Shown here piece by piece: positions 57,175 through 64,000 of a DNA stretch of 64,000 bases. The notes beneath the pieces are model-generated. The model was not told the origin of the DNA, made no database searches, and saw only the letters and a list, made by a program, of their open reading frames with translations. Numbering within the stretch: the first letter of the stretch is position 1; each line of letters opens with the position of its first letter. Origin of the DNA: Haloarchaeobius sp. HME9146 (GTDB lineage Archaea; Halobacteriota; Halobacteria; Halobacteriales; Natrialbaceae); NCBI RefSeq assembly GCF_025399835.1, contig NZ_JAODVR010000001.1:372001-436000 (forward strand), written 5' to 3'. The translations under genes were made by a program, and so were the position numbers.

Positions 57175-58899
57175 TCAGAAGGCCCCGGGTGCGACGACGT
57201 AGGCGAACAGGATGGTCAAGACGCCCGTCATCGCGGCGTAGTACAGCAGCGGAATCAGTTCGAGGCGGATGACGCGACCCTCCTCGCCGACCAGTCCGAC
57301 GACGGCCAGCGCGGCCACGACGTTGTGGATGGCGACGAGGTTCCCGATGGCCCCACCGACGGCCTGTGCGCCGACGAGGATCTGGGTCGGGACGCCGATG
57401 TTCTGTGCGGCGTTGAACTGGAACGTCCCGAACAGGATGTCACTGACCGTGTTCGACCCGGCGATGAACGCGCCGAACGCGCCCACGAGCGCCGAGAAGA
57501 ACGGGTAGACGCCACCCGCGAGGTTCGCCGTGAAGTCCGAGAGGATGACGAGCATGCTGTCGGTGCCCGCCGCCTGCCCGGAGTTGATCATGATCTGGAC
57601 GGTCGCGACCGCGAACCACAGCGCGATGACCGCCGGCAGTATCTTCTGGGTGGTCTCCTGCCAGGAGTTCTTGACCTCCTGCCCGTCCATCCCGTGCAGC
57701 AGGTACGTGATGACGCTGACGAACACGAAGATGGCACCCGGCAGGTACAGCGTGCGGAACGACCCGTCGAGGCCGGTCCCGAGGATGTTGCTCCACGCGA
57801 TGACGAGGTTCTCGTTCAGGAAGCTCTGGAGCGGGGTCCAGACGCGGGTGACCACCAGCAGCGCGGCGGTCATGATGTACGGTGCCCACGCCATGCCCAG
57901 CGACATGTCGCGGCTCTCCTGGACGACGCCGCCATCGGCGGCGACGGTCTGGTCACCACCGCTGACGGACTCGCCGGGTTCGATGTCGCCGACCCAGTGG
58001 CTGGGCCACTGCTCGCGGGGCGCGAAGTCCCACTCCTCGTCGGGGAGCAGGAAGCCCGCCTTGAGCGTCCCGGCCGTGATGAACAGCCCGACCATCGCGC
58101 CGAGCAGCGCGGGGAACGTCGGGCCGAGGAAGTACGCGGTGAGCCAGTACGGAATCGCGAAAGAAGCCCACGCGAAGATGGTGAGCGGGAGCACCTGGAG
58201 CGCCGGCTTGATGGAGCGCTCCTCGCCGAAGAAGCGGGTCATCATCGCGACCCCGATGAACGGGAGCACGATGCCGACGATGGCGTGGATGGAGGCCGCC
58301 CAGACCGCCGCGTCCGCGACGTACTGGGTGACGGTCATGCCCTCCGTGTTGATGGCCTCCTGTATCGCCGTGTTCTTGCTGAAGACGTCCTCCAGCCCGA
58401 TGATGAGCGGCGTCCCGACTGCCCCGAACGTGATGGCCATGATGTTCCCCGTCAGGGCGACCACGACGGCCGCCAGCGGCGGGAAGCCGAGGCCAACGAG
58501 CAGCGGGCCGACGATGGCTGCGGGCGTCCCGAAGCCGGCCGCACCCTCGATGAACGAGCCCATGAGGAATACGAGCAGGACGACCTGCACGCGCCGGTCG
58601 TCGCTGATGGACGAGAAGCCGGCGTTGATGGCGTCGAACGCGCCCGATTCCTTCAGCGTGAACAACAGCAGTATCGCGCCGAACACGATCCACAGAATCT
58701 CCGTGGCGGTGAACACGCCGGCGATGGTCGCCGCCGCGATGAGGTCGGGCGACATGCCCCAGCCGATGAGCCCGACGGCCGCGGCCGTCACCCACGCAAT
58801 GGGCATGGTGGTCGTCGCGGGCTGGTAGAGCCCGACCATCAGGACCGTGATGGCGACCAGCGGCAGCACCGCCAGCAGTATCATCAGCGGGTCAGCCAT
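57175..58899 (-). CDS. lctP: L-lactate permease
   Basis: A 574-residue integral membrane protein with about 13 helices. The family hallmarks are ESGAFDAINAGFSSISDDRRVQVVLLVFLMGSFIEGAAGFGTPAAIVGPLLVGLGFPPLAAV (in outline) and QILVGAQAVGGAIGNLVAIHNVVAA at the C-terminus. It imports lactate or glycolate with protons and is first major gene of the lactate operon. ATG at 58899 overlaps the stop of a 35-residue ORF by 8 bases. Confidence 0.93.
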   Translation of the reverse strand: MADPLMILLAVLPLVAITVLMVGLYQPATTTMPIAWVTAAAVGLIGWGMSPDLIAAATIAGVFTATEILWIVFGAILLLFTLKESGAFDAINAGFSSISDDRRVQVVLLVFLMGSFIEGAAGFGTPAAIVGPLLVGLGFPPLAAVVVALTGNIMAITFGAVGTPLIIGLEDVFSKNTAIQEAINTEGMTVTQYVADAAVWAASIHAIVGIVLPFIGVAMMTRFFGEERSIKPALQVLPLTIFAWASFAIPYWLTAYFLGPTFPALLGAMVGLFITAGTLKAGFLLPDEEWDFAPREQWPSHWVGDIEPGESVSGGDQTVAADGGVVQESRDMSLGMAWAPYIMTAALLVVTRVWTPLQSFLNENLVIAWSNILGTGLDGSFRTLYLPGAIFVFVSVITYLLHGMDGQEVKNSWQETTQKILPAVIALWFAVATVQIMINSGQAAGTDSMLVILSDFTANLAGGVYPFFSALVGAFGAFIAGSNTVSDILFGTFQFNAAQNIGVPTQILVGAQAVGGAIGNLVAIHNVVAALAVVGLVGEEGRVIRLELIPLLYYAAMTGVLTILFAYVVAPGAF

Positions 58900-59293: not shown

Positions 59294-60406
59294 TCAGTCG
59301 TCCGCCGCCGGAGCCGCCGGTATCTCGTGGTCCGCGAGTTCAGCGGTCGGCGCGAGGAAGCGCGCCGGGTCGAACTGGTCGAGCTCCCGGTCGTCGGCGA
59401 CGCGGGTCGGCCAGTCCGGGTTGGCGAGCGCCCCGGTCCCGAGCGTCAGGAGGTCCGCCCCGGCCTCGGTCGCCTCCCGTGCGGCTTCGGGGTCGCCGAG
59501 GCCGCCGTTGGCGATGACGACCGTGTCGTCGGTGACGTGCTCGACCGCCGCCTCGGCGAGCGTTGGTCCGTCGTCGCCAAACGCGGGCGAGGTGACGTCT
59601 GGTTCGGTGACGTGGACGTAGTCCGCACCGGCCGCCGAGAGTTCCGGGAAGAACACCGCAGCCGCGTCCTCGCCCTCGGGCCACTCGTACTCGGGGTCGG
59701 TCACCTTCGTCTGGGAGACGCGGACGCCGACGACGAAGTCGTCCGGGACCGCCTCGGCGACGGCCGAGACGACCTCGGCGGGGAACCGGACGCGGTTCTC
59801 GGGAGCCCCGCCGTACTCGTCGTCGCGCTGGTTCGCGTCCGCGGCGAGGAACTCGTTGAGGAGGTAGCCGTTCGCGCCGTGGACCTCGACGCCGTCGAAG
59901 CCGGCATCGTGGGCGTTCTTCGCGGCCTCGACGAAGCCCTCGCGGATGTCGTCGAGGTCGTCGTGGGTGGCCGCGTTGGCGACCGCGAACTCCCCGCTCC
60001 CGCCGTACGGTTCGGCCTTCTCGCCCTGCGGCTGCCAGGCCGAGGGCGCGATGGTCTCCTCGCCGTCGACGTGCGGGTTGCCCTGCGTCTGGGCCCCGGC
60101 GTGCATCAGCTGGGCGAAGATGGGAGCCTGGGCGTCGTGGACCGCCTCGGTCACCTGGGTCCAGGCCTCGACCTGCTCGTCGGTGACGAGGCCGGGCTGG
60201 TTCAGGTAGCCCTGGCTGTAGCGGTCGTCGGTGTAGACGCCCTCGGTGACGAGGAAGGAGAACCCGCCCTCGGCGAACCGGGTGTAGTACCGGGCCATCT
60301 CGGCGGTCGCACGCCCATCGTCGGTGGCGCTGACGCGTGTCATCGGCGCGAGGCCGACGCGATTGTCGAGTGCCAGTTCGTTCAGGCTCGTCGTATCGAA
60401 CAACAT
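59294..60406 (-). CDS. NADH:flavin oxidoreductase (Old Yellow Enzyme type)
   Basis: A 370-residue one-domain OYE flavoprotein (FMN TIM barrel): LALDNRVGLAPMTRVSATDDGRAT, PIFAQLMHAGAQT, GFDGVEVHGANGYLLNEFLAADANQRDDEYGG with the active-site His/Asn pair region, GVRVSQTKVTDPEY and NGGLGDPEAAREATEAGADLLTLG. It reduces activated alkenes with NAD(P)H. No Fe-S motif, unlike the other OYE in this window. The ATG at 60406 starts MLFDTTSLNEL. It is divergent from an HTH_10 gene, and a palindrome (60445-60460) lies 39-54 bases before its start. Confidence 0.92.
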   Translation of the reverse strand: MLFDTTSLNELALDNRVGLAPMTRVSATDDGRATAEMARYYTRFAEGGFSFLVTEGVYTDDRYSQGYLNQPGLVTDEQVEAWTQVTEAVHDAQAPIFAQLMHAGAQTQGNPHVDGEETIAPSAWQPQGEKAEPYGGSGEFAVANAATHDDLDDIREGFVEAAKNAHDAGFDGVEVHGANGYLLNEFLAADANQRDDEYGGAPENRVRFPAEVVSAVAEAVPDDFVVGVRVSQTKVTDPEYEWPEGEDAAAVFFPELSAAGADYVHVTEPDVTSPAFGDDGPTLAEAAVEHVTDDTVVIANGGLGDPEAAREATEAGADLLTLGTGALANPDWPTRVADDRELDQFDPARFLAPTAELADHEIPAAPAADD

Positions 60407-60519
60407 GTGGGCCTCGGTATGGCGCAGAGACCGGTAATCCCCAGTTTGCCATATGCCAAACGCTCTGTGGATGGTTCGCACACCAACGAGCTTATTTGGC
60501 GATAGCCAAACTCTGTGCC
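60407..60519. promoter_or_regulatory. Divergent promoter with two related palindromes
   Basis: TTTGCCATATGCCAAA (60445-60460) and TTTGGCGATAGCCAAA (60495-60510). The second covers the region between a TATA-like CTTATTT and the ATG of the HTH_10 gene (10-25 bases upstream), so binding would block initiation. A third copy occurs before the TFB gene. Confidence 0.65.
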
Positions 60520-61287
60520 ATGCGCGAGTTCGCGTTCACCATCGAGTACGACAGGGGGGCGGACCCACTGATGGACGTCTTCATCGAGCACCCGGAGGCC
60601 CACGCCCGGACCATCAACTGCCACGTCTCGCCCAACAGCATGTGGCGCATCGACCGGATCGCTGGCCCCGAGGACGCTCTCGAACGCATCGACGACCTCT
60701 ACACTGCCCCGGAGCACTGCAACGAGTGCATCGGCTCCCGGCACTGCCACACCGACTGGGAGCACGAGTTCCTCGAACGCGCGCCCTCGCGCCGGACCAT
60801 CTACACCTTCCGTCCCTCCCCCGGCGATTGCTACTCCATCCCCCAGCTCGCCTGCATGTACCTCGGCGAAGGGTACCTCTGTGCCGCCGAACGCCGCAAC
60901 AATCGCTACGAGTGGCGCATCCTCATGCGCGACGACGGCGACGCGATGGGCCTCCACGAGGCGTTGAGCGAGGAGTTGCGCGATGGGCTCTCGCTTTCCT
61001 TCCGCCAAATCGGCGGCCCCTCCTACTGGGCGGAGGAGGCAATCACGCTCGCCGAACTCCCCTACGAGCAGCGTGAAGCCATCGAGACCGCGGTTCGGAT
61101 GGGCTACTACCAGACCCCGCGTGGCACCTCGATGGCGGAGGTCGCCCAGGAACTCGAGATTCCGCGGTCGACGCTGCAGTACCGGCTCCAGCAGGCCGAA
61201 TCGTGGATCATCGGCTGTTTCGTCTCCCGGTCGGTGTCGGACATCGGTGAGCAGTGCTCGCGCCAGCCAGCCGCACCCGAGGTCTGA
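60520..61287 (+). CDS. HTH_10 (bacterio-opsin activator-type) regulator
   Basis: A 255-residue transcription factor. The N-terminal part (about 1-185) is a sensory domain with a Cys/His cluster HCNECIGSRHCHTDWEHEF that may bind a metal or sense redox. The C-terminus (about 190-240) is HTH_10: LPYEQREAIETAVRMGYYQTPRGTSMAEVAQELEIPRSTLQYRLQQAE. It is divergent from the OYE gene and may control it; the palindromes between them are candidate binding sites. ATG at 60520. Confidence 0.9.
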   Translation: MREFAFTIEYDRGADPLMDVFIEHPEAHARTINCHVSPNSMWRIDRIAGPEDALERIDDLYTAPEHCNECIGSRHCHTDWEHEFLERAPSRRTIYTFRPSPGDCYSIPQLACMYLGEGYLCAAERRNNRYEWRILMRDDGDAMGLHEALSEELRDGLSLSFRQIGGPSYWAEEAITLAELPYEQREAIETAVRMGYYQTPRGTSMAEVAQELEIPRSTLQYRLQQAESWIIGCFVSRSVSDIGEQCSRQPAAPEV

Positions 61288-61548: not shown

Positions 61549-61896
61549 TCAGGGCTTGCAGGAACACGTCCGGGTCGACTCGGCCCACCGGGACCGGGTC
61601 ACGCGACCGGTCAGGCGGGCGAGCCGAGCCCTGAGACCCTCGACGGCAGTGCTCGCGCGCTCCTGTCCGTTCTGCTGGGCCGTCTCGCGCAGGTAGAGAT
61701 ACGTCGCCGTCGGCAGCATGAGGCCGCTGTATATCAGCCCGACCGCGACACCGGCCTGGAGGGGATGCCCGGCAGGAACCGCCAGCCACGCCGTCGCGGC
61801 GACGACCAAGAGCGCGAGTCCCGACAGGACGGGGGCTCGCCACTCCGACGGTGTCGATGCCCCGGCCTGCGTCCGGTTCCGGTCCTCAGTCGCCAT
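61549..61896 (-). CDS. Small membrane protein downstream of TFB
   Basis: A 115-residue protein with two hydrophobic segments (about 22-40, VLSGLALLVVAATAWLAV; about 47-67) and a polar basic tail. Its start overlaps the end of the TFB gene by 11 bases, so they are co-transcribed. Family not recognised. Confidence 0.68.
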   Translation of the reverse strand: MATEDRNRTQAGASTPSEWRAPVLSGLALLVVAATAWLAVPAGHPLQAGVAVGLIYSGLMLPTATYLYLRETAQQNGQERASTAVEGLRARLARLTGRVTRSRWAESTRTCSCKP

Positions 61897-62896
61897 CCTC
61901 GACTCGCAGGCTGGAGAGTCGCTTCTGGCCGACGACCTCGAACAGCTCCTGGTAGCGGTTGCGGATGGTGACCTCGCTGATGTCGGTCACCTCGCTCACC
62001 TCGTCCTGGGTCAGTTCCTCGCTCGCGAGCAGGCTCCCGGCGTAGATGGCCGCCGCAGCGAGTCCGACCGGGCTCTTGCCGCTGTGGACGCCCTCCTGCT
62101 TGGCCGCCTGGAGCAGCCTGCGTGCGGGGCGTTCGACGGTGGCCCCGGCGTCGAGCTCCGAGAGGAACCGCGGGAGGTACTGCTCGGGGTCGGCGGGTTC
62201 GACCTTCAGGCCGAGTTCGCGGACGACGTAGCGGTAGGTCCGGCTGAGTTCCTGCTTGTCGACGCGGGACACCTCACCCACCTCGTCGAGGCTGCGGGGC
62301 ACGCCGGCCTGTCTGGCGGCGGCGTACAGGGACGCCGTGGCGACGCCCTCGATGGACCGGCCCGGGAGCAGGTCCTCTTCGAGTGCGCGGCGGTAGACGA
62401 CGCTCCCCGTCTCGCGGACGTTCTTCGGGAGCCCGAGGGCGCTGCCCATCCGCTCTATCTCGCCGAGTGCCTGCTTGAGGTTGCGCTCCTTGGAGTCACG
62501 GGTCCGGAATCGCTCGTTCCAGGTGCGCAGGCGCTGCATCTTCTGGCGCTGGCTCGACGAGAGCGAGTTCCCGTACGCGTCCTTGTTCTGCCAGCCGATG
62601 TTGGTCGACAGCCCGTCGTCGTGCATCAGCTTCGTCGTGGGTGCGCCGACGCGGGACTTCTCGTCCTTCTGTTTCGCGTCGAAGGCGCGCCACTCCGGGC
62701 CACGGTCGATGACTCCCTCGCGGACGACCTCGCCGGTCTCGGGGTCGACCCACTCGCCGTGACGTTCGTCGTAGACGAGGTCCTCCTCGCTGGGCTGGTC
62801 CGACCGCTCGTCGCTCGTCTCGTGCTGTTCCTCTCCGCTGGTCGTCCTGACGCCGGTGGAGGCCGAGCGCCGGGCAGTTCGGGTTGTCTCCGACAT
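61886..62896 (-). CDS. tfb: Transcription initiation factor TFB, zinc-ribbon cysteines lost
   Basis: A 336-residue TFB (TFIIB homologue). The core is canonical: the B-finger/linker DRGPEWRAFDAKQKDEKSRVGAP, then two cyclin folds from LRTWNERFRTRDSKERNLKQAL to ISEVTIRNRYQELFEVV. The N-terminal ribbon region (about 30-60, EEDLVYDERHGEWVDPETGEVV) has no cysteine, although haloarchaeal TFBs usually have CxxC...CxxC there. The ribbon recruits RNA polymerase, so this paralogue may act as a variant or regulatory TFB. ATG at 62896; a palindrome at 62942-62957 lies 46 bases upstream. Confidence 0.92.
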   Translation of the reverse strand: MSETTRTARRSASTGVRTTSGEEQHETSDERSDQPSEEDLVYDERHGEWVDPETGEVVREGVIDRGPEWRAFDAKQKDEKSRVGAPTTKLMHDDGLSTNIGWQNKDAYGNSLSSSQRQKMQRLRTWNERFRTRDSKERNLKQALGEIERMGSALGLPKNVRETGSVVYRRALEEDLLPGRSIEGVATASLYAAARQAGVPRSLDEVGEVSRVDKQELSRTYRYVVRELGLKVEPADPEQYLPRFLSELDAGATVERPARRLLQAAKQEGVHSGKSPVGLAAAAIYAGSLLASEELTQDEVSEVTDISEVTIRNRYQELFEVVGQKRLSSLRVEDGD

Positions 62897-62941: not shown

Positions 62942-62957
62942 TTTGGCATATGCCAAG
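62942..62957. promoter_or_regulatory. Palindrome before the TFB gene
   Basis: TTTGGCATATGCCAAG: the central 14 bases TTGGCATATGCCAA are a perfect palindrome. It is the third copy of the sites at 60445-60460 and 60495-60510 and its GCATATGC centre may include the core TATA of the tfb promoter. Confidence 0.6.
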
Positions 62958-63193: not shown

Positions 63194-64000
63194 ATGAGTA
63201 GTCAGGAGCCAGTCACACAGCGAGAGGTACCGCCCGACATCGAAATCGCGCGCGACGCGACGCGCCGACCCATCGAGGCGGTCGCGGGCGACCTGGGCCT
63301 CGACGCCGTGGACCTCGAACCGCGGGGGAACGAGGTGGCGAAGCTGACCTGGGACGCCATCAGCCGGACGCTCGAGCAGCCGGCCGACGGGAAGCTGGTA
63401 CTGGTGACGGCGATGACGCCGACGCGCCGCGGGGCGGGCAAGACCGTCACGACGGTCGGACTCGGCCAGGCGCTCGGGCAGCTCGGCGCGTCAAACGCGG
63501 TCGCGGTCCGGGAGCCGTCGCAGGGGCCGGTGTTCGGCATCAAGGGCGGCGCGGCCGGGGGCGGCTACAGCCAGGTGCTCCCAATGGAGGAGATAAACCT
63601 CCACTTCACGGGCGACATCCACGCCGTCACGTCGGCGCACAACCTCATCGCGGCGATGGTCGACGCGAGCCGGCACCACGGCAATCCGCTGGACATCGAC
63701 CCCGACCGCGTGGTCTGGGGGCGGGCGCTCGACGTGAACGACCGGGCGCTGCGCGAGACTGTCGTCGGCCTCGGTGGGACCACGAACGGCCCACCGCGGG
63801 AGGACTCGTTCTGCATCACCGCCGCATCCGAACTCATGGCGGTGCTCTGTCTCGCCACCGACATCGCGGACCTCAAGGCCAGAGTCGGACGGGTCATCGT
63901 CGCCTACGACACCGACGGCGAGCCGGTCACCGTCGCGGACCTCGACGCCGTCGGGGCCGTGACCGCGCTCCTGAAGGACGCCCTGCGGCCGAACCTCGTC
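63194..64000 (+). CDS. fhs: Formate-tetrahydrofolate ligase (3' end outside window)
   Basis: The first 269 residues of formyltetrahydrofolate synthetase (formate + tetrahydrofolate + ATP to 10-formyl-THF). Visible: PPDIEIARDATRRPIEAVAGDLGL, EVAKLTWDAI, P-loop TPTRRGAGKTVTTVGLGQAL, REPSQGPVFGIKGGAAGGGYSQVLPMEEINLHFTGDIHAVTSAHNLI. All belong to the family. The P-loop has RRGAGKT where bacterial enzymes usually show PAGEGKT. ATG at 63194; the gene continues past the edge (usual length about 560). Confidence 0.94.
   Translation, partial: MSSQEPVTQREVPPDIEIARDATRRPIEAVAGDLGLDAVDLEPRGNEVAKLTWDAISRTLEQPADGKLVLVTAMTPTRRGAGKTVTTVGLGQALGQLGASNAVAVREPSQGPVFGIKGGAAGGGYSQVLPMEEINLHFTGDIHAVTSAHNLIAAMVDASRHHGNPLDIDPDRVVWGRALDVNDRALRETVVGLGGTTNGPPREDSFCITAASELMAVLCLATDIADLKARVGRVIVAYDTDGEPVTVADLDAVGAVTALLKDALRPNLV

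Follow-up and report, generated by a model that had tools for sequence, protein, structure and literature searches.

Few docking modules in archaeal and eukaryotic transcription are as conserved as the zinc ribbon of TFIIB/TFB. TFB ribbons contact the dock domain of the polymerase (PMC7865254). The TFB family is expanded in haloarchaea, and its classes, for example the Halobacterium Tfb classes, have been described in a report whose section on TFB classes does not mention cysteine loss (PMC4230888). In Haloferax volcanii, the ribbon of TFE-alpha is reported to be degenerate, with a single Cys left and zinc bound weakly, and TFE-beta to lack the Fe-S cluster (PMC5861453). The TFS3 and TFS4 proteins of Sulfolobus showed that ribbon paralogues of basal factors can degenerate or become inhibitory; TFS3 lost cysteines, and TFS4 turned into an inhibitor with its cysteines retained (PMC5715097). 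The plant TFIIB-like protein AtBRF5 lacks the N-terminal zinc domain and one cyclin fold (PMC7865254). In this study, we analysed a window of 64,000 nucleotides from Haloarchaeobius sp. HME9146, which encodes a cysteine-less TFB of 336 aa (61886..62896, minus strand). This protein shares with AtBRF5 the loss of the zinc domain, but it keeps the ribbon in a zinc-free form. The Haloferax TFE subunits offer a parallel, in that the metal centre of a haloarchaeal basal factor has degenerated or disappeared; however, TFE is a different factor, and TFE-alpha is the normal copy, whereas the window TFB is a paralogue additional to intact copies. TFS3 and TFS4 belong to the TFIIS family and not to TFIIB. 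No earlier description of a cysteine-less TFB was found among the open papers searched.

The absence of cysteine from the ribbon was the starting point of the original prediction, and translation of the ORF at 61886-62896 (-) bore it out, with no Cys in the whole 336-aa protein. Two TFIIB cyclin repeats (PF00382) were detected with Pfam at 142 bits, well over the cut-off. The ribbon model PF08271 matched residues 38-72 at 20.7 bits, under its cut-off of 29, and the NCBIfam TFB model gave 378.9 against a cut-off of 384. The linker after the ribbon (GPEWRAF...SRVGAPTT...HDxGLST.IGW) was conserved. The BRE helix reads VTIRNRYQEL, compared to VTVRNRYKEL in the solved Pyrococcus TFB; phmmer matched the protein to 1d3u and 1ais, and Foldseek returned known TFIIB structures only. 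The regions that face DNA and TBP show nothing unusual, and the predicted conservation of the linker and both cyclin folds was confirmed by alignment and by these structure-sequence matches. Compared with a canonical haloarchaeal TFB, the window TFB agrees in linker, BRE helix, length and the presence of two cyclin folds, with a core identity of 70-80%, but it has no zinc ligand, carries the signature VYDE-HGEW---ETGE and Glu in place of Leu56, and lies in an HTH_10 module with a palindrome. The C4 zinc ribbon of archaeal TFB/TFIIB is missing, and the skeleton of the fold is retained. Judged by its core and linker, the window protein is a TFB; by its defining zinc ribbon, it is non-canonical.

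Sequencing error was ruled out as the cause of the missing cysteines. The orthologue in the congener G003 is 90% identical, lies in the same place and is also Cys-free, and cysteine-less TFBs occur in species of three further genera. A zinc ribbon hidden upstream in a longer ORF was rejected as well. The in-frame extension crosses the promoter palindrome, its Cys is absent from G003, and most cysteine-less TFBs share the start MSE(T/S)(K/T).

The ribbon corresponds to residues 39-72 (62681..62782, minus strand, computed from the residue numbers). Both zinc knuckles are gone, and the skeleton DLVYDERHGEWVDPETGEVVREGVIDRGPEWRAF is present. VYDE-HGEW---ETGE is invariant in the cysteine-less clade, which, when aligned without gaps backwards from GPEW, keeps LV-D--HGE-V----G-VV-EDEIDRGPEW. 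We compared 10 distinct cysteine-less ribbons with 75 distinct cysteine ribbons. Tyr42, Trp49, Thr54 and Glu56 were present in all 10 of the former and in none of the latter, and no cysteine ribbon had an aromatic residue at 42 or 49. Arg59 was found in 9 of the 10, compared to 0 of the 75, where residue 59 is mostly acidic. Position 51 is Asp or Asn instead of Cys, and position 56, Glu in the cysteine-less ribbons, is Leu in all 75 cysteine TFBs. AlphaFold placed strands at 41-43, 48-50 and 57-58 with moderate block pLDDT (66-74). A Haloarcula cysteine TFB, run as the control with mostly the same rows, had strands at the same alignment positions (pLDDT 81-84). From this register, with a hairpin turn at 44-47, residues 42 and 49 are expected to lie opposite one another on adjacent strands. 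Cross-strand aromatic pairs can stabilise small hairpins. Because the ribbon has an invariant signature of its own that includes Tyr42 and Trp49, it reads as rebuilt and not decayed.

We then examined how widely this ribbon occurs. A ribbon profile searched against 391 Halobacteria genomes picked out 15 genomes at 89-94 bits, all with cysteine-less ribbons (92.7 bits for the window TFB). The next best score was 65 bits, cysteine TFBs did not exceed this value, and cysteines were present in all of the 15 next-best loci read under the gap. The 15 genomes consisted of 11 of the 15 Haloferax genomes, two of the window's genus and two in other genera. Within the window's family (125 genomes), only the window genome and G003 stood out, at 97 and 71 bits compared to at most 43. 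A scan with the HTH_10 neighbour as query showed cysteine-less TFBs beside HTH_10 in eight Haloferax species, Halogranum amylolyticum and Halorientalis salina. In quick trees made without bootstrap from an alignment that excluded the ribbon, the cysteine-less TFBs were monophyletic (SH-aLRT 99 with 76 rows, and 94 in a reduced set of 70 rows). Since they form one clade on a ribbon-free tree, a single loss of the cysteines is most likely, followed by patchy spread or loss of the gene. A scan of viral contigs found no relative, so a viral origin was not supported. A plasmid search, in which only the feature names under matches and not the ribbons were considered, found no place above 80% identity.

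The TFB lies beside a regulator with HVO_2928_N and HTH_10 domains (60520..61287, plus strand), identified as its conserved partner by Pfam, a homologue scan and a tree. A small two-helix membrane protein (61549..61896, minus strand), the start of which overlaps the TFB stop, recurs in related loci. An old-yellow-enzyme (OYE) family oxidoreductase (59294..60406, minus strand), identified with Pfam/NCBIfam, is a local neighbour outside the conserved module. The conserved unit consists of HTH_10, TFB and the small membrane protein, and the HTH_10-TFB pairing recurs in many genera. In Haloferax the membrane protein converges on the TFB; in Haloarcula it is divergent from HTH_10, with the palindrome in between. 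Its family has C-terminal cysteines, has no Pfam match and is recurrent beside the HTH_10/TFB pair. A lactate permease of the LctP family (57175-58899, minus strand) and a formate-tetrahydrofolate ligase-like gene (63194-64000, plus strand) flank the module in both congeners and show no sign of membership. The order in G003 is lctP - HTH_10 - membrane protein - TFB - fhs, with no OYE. Conversely, in the OYE-bearing congeners G004 and G005 there is no cysteine-less TFB and HTH_10 has distant relatives only, and tblastn showed no OYE neighbour at the other HTH_10 loci examined. OYE was therefore rejected as the functional core of the module, as it is not conserved. Its best NCBIfam match was N-ethylmaleimide reductase, far under the cut-off; this resemblance would fit electrophile stress.

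A palindrome was found by pattern search at three places: TTTGGCATATGCCAAG at 62942..62957, 46-61 bases upstream of the TFB start, TTTGGCGATAGCCAAA before HTH_10 at 60495..60510, and TTTGCCATATGCCAAA before OYE at 60445..60460. When one mismatch was allowed, TTTGGCNNNWGCCAAA had three sites in the 4.19-Mb genome, which are the OYE, HTH_10 and TFB promoters. The exact form TTGGCNNNNGCCAA had only two sites in the 4.19 Mb, at the HTH_10 and TFB promoters, compared to 13 for the reversed control pattern. TYGGN6CCRA was located at most 75 bases upstream of HTH_10 at 39 of 61 loci (1.1% in control windows) and close to where the neighbouring TFB begins at 26 of 34 (3.8% in control windows). These counts are descriptive, since related species do not provide independent observations. 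The HTH_10 site of G003 differs by a single change, and a half-site is what remains of the site before its TFB. The palindrome also precedes HTH_10 in Natrialbaceae without a neighbouring TFB (L178, L183). Since it steadily precedes the regulator's own gene, HTH_10 itself is the putative binder, and the palindrome its candidate site. No described binding site for this HTH_10 family was found in the literature searched. The original prediction had linked the TFB by its promoter to an OYE/HTH_10 regulon. The HTH_10 part stands, as the palindrome is unique to this place in the genome and, like the HTH_10-TFB pair, is found again in many genera; the OYE part holds locally, as OYE shares the palindrome in this genome but is not conserved. 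The suggestion of a dedicated factor gained support from the promoter link to the neighbouring HTH_10 gene.

The best explanation of these results, which we hold with moderate confidence, is an active, zinc-independent alternative TFB that is switched on through HTH_10; the activity, the metal content and the regulator binding are what we infer here. The protein would be a genuine, selected paralogue of archaeal TFB whose docking ribbon has been remade into a three-stranded sheet that needs no metal. Of the two zinc knuckles, the first would have been lost and the second replaced by a (D/N)xETGE turn, and the ribbon is probably stabilised by the new Tyr42-Trp49 pair in place of zinc. TBP-promoter DNA is still expected to be bound, because the cyclin folds, the BRE-recognition helix and the linker are kept. 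HTH_10 would bind the palindrome at its own promoter and at that of the TFB and would raise the TFB under a stress, such as an oxidant, electrophile or metal, that damages cysteines or takes away zinc. The zinc-free TFB would then act as an alternative initiation factor and bring polymerase to promoters of its own. Insensitivity of a cysteine-less TFB to zinc or oxidation may fairly be expected. A more specific version is possible but tentative. In it, a stress-dedicated, zinc-independent TFB with a metal-free docking ribbon, switched on by HTH_10, would re-route transcription, by TFB exchange, when cysteine-zinc ribbons fail. Cys34, 67, 76 and 104 of the HTH_10 regulator were present in all 11 aligned homologues. 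These cysteines suggest a thiol or metal signal and make the regulator a candidate sensor, an idea that we hold loosely because the TFB partners come from two HTH_10 subclades and the Haloferax-type homologues lack some of the four cysteines.

The main rival, which we consider rather unlikely, is that the protein is a dedicated repressor that binds TBP and BRE/TATA DNA, cannot dock the polymerase and blocks promoters to other TFBs. The loss of all four zinc ligands beside an intact DNA-binding core would agree with this, and so would the changes of Leu56 to Glu and of acidic 59 to Arg, which together indicate a changed docking surface; this altered surface could weaken polymerase docking. Sulfolobus TFS4, a paralogue of a basal factor that blocks initiation, provides a precedent (PMC5715097). 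However, a ribbon without a partner should drift or vanish, yet the signature is invariant across four genera. This invariance argues against plain loss of function, and it is compatible with a repressor. The substitution rates count against the repressor too, as ribbon dN is about equal to core dN. Eight pairs from different genera or from distant Haloferax gave ribbon dN values of 0.07-0.16, which were not above core dN in seven of the eight. In the closest pair, the window and G003, ribbon dN was 0.106 and core dN 0.041, a comparison that covers 26 codons only.

It is unlikely, and less likely than repression, that the ribbon has been re-targeted, so that the hairpin docks HTH_10, another regulator or a modified polymerase site and serves as a promoter-specific bridge instead of a zinc-free version of the usual TFB function. 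The new invariant surface residues E56, R59 and W49 and the constant company of HTH_10 and the membrane protein would suit such a bridge. However, cysteine TFBs adjoin HTH_10 too. Many HTH_10-neighbour TFBs have intact cysteines, in Haloarcula, Haladaptatus, Halorubellus, Halocatena and several MAGs. The HTH_10-TFB partnership is thus wider than zinc loss, and the altered ribbon is not needed for it. These cysteine TFBs have the same HTH_10 family neighbour and the same palindrome as the window TFB and possibly belong to the same clade, as the TFB tree allows one group of cysteine-less and HTH_10-adjacent TFBs (support 77); they differ in retaining the four ribbon cysteines. The HTH_10 and TFB trees are not congruent, and the regulators partnering TFBs come from two subclades, which also speaks against re-targeting. 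The window HTH_10 groups with the Haladaptatus and Haloarcula regulators, and the Haloferax regulators fall in another subclade. Since this separates the window regulator from the Haloferax partners, simple vertical descent of one HTH_10-TFB pair was rejected, and the discordant trees require partner exchange or repeated linkage. Repeated association of HTH_10 with TFB strengthens the functional link between them.

Neutral or salt-adaptive depletion of cysteine with no special function, as proposed for the metal centres of Haloferax TFE, is improbable. The degenerate ribbon of Haloferax TFE-alpha and the haloarchaeal TFE-beta without Fe-S cluster led the authors of that report to suggest a general trend towards fewer cysteines (PMC5861453). 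However, all nine other full-length TFBs read in the window genome (L055-L063) have the four ribbon cysteines (CxxC...CxxC), and its TFE-alpha keeps the four as well, which rules out general cysteine depletion for these proteins. Only a single TFB clade is affected, and it has gained invariant residues of its own. Two of the other TFBs, L062 (G000:C1:279000-280500) and L063 (G000:C2:286000-287400), are strongly divergent with their ribbon cysteines retained, and L063 lacks the GPEW motif. The same genome has an ORF of 124 aa in which there is only one TFB cyclin repeat (G000:C1:2439121-2439348; L021, L064), possibly a remnant or a mini-TFB. Finally, a decaying or non-functional gene or a sequencing error, to which the sub-threshold score of the curated ribbon model might point, is hardly credible, as the ORF is intact and under purifying selection, many species have orthologues and the promoter is conserved; the existence of a conserved clade already refutes it.

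If the stress-dedicated reading of an active, zinc-independent TFB is true, basal transcription would be re-routed by changing the TFB, an exchange under stress that resembles that of bacterial sigma factors. For the HTH_10 family, the conserved palindrome offers both a candidate binding site and a candidate regulon. A natural clade in which a protein-only core has apparently taken the place of the zinc centre exists beside intact copies in most species of Haloferax, a genus with genetic tools, which makes the metal need of TFB docking directly testable. With the same clade, it can also be tested whether the many TFBs of haloarchaea serve as alternative initiation factors for particular conditions.
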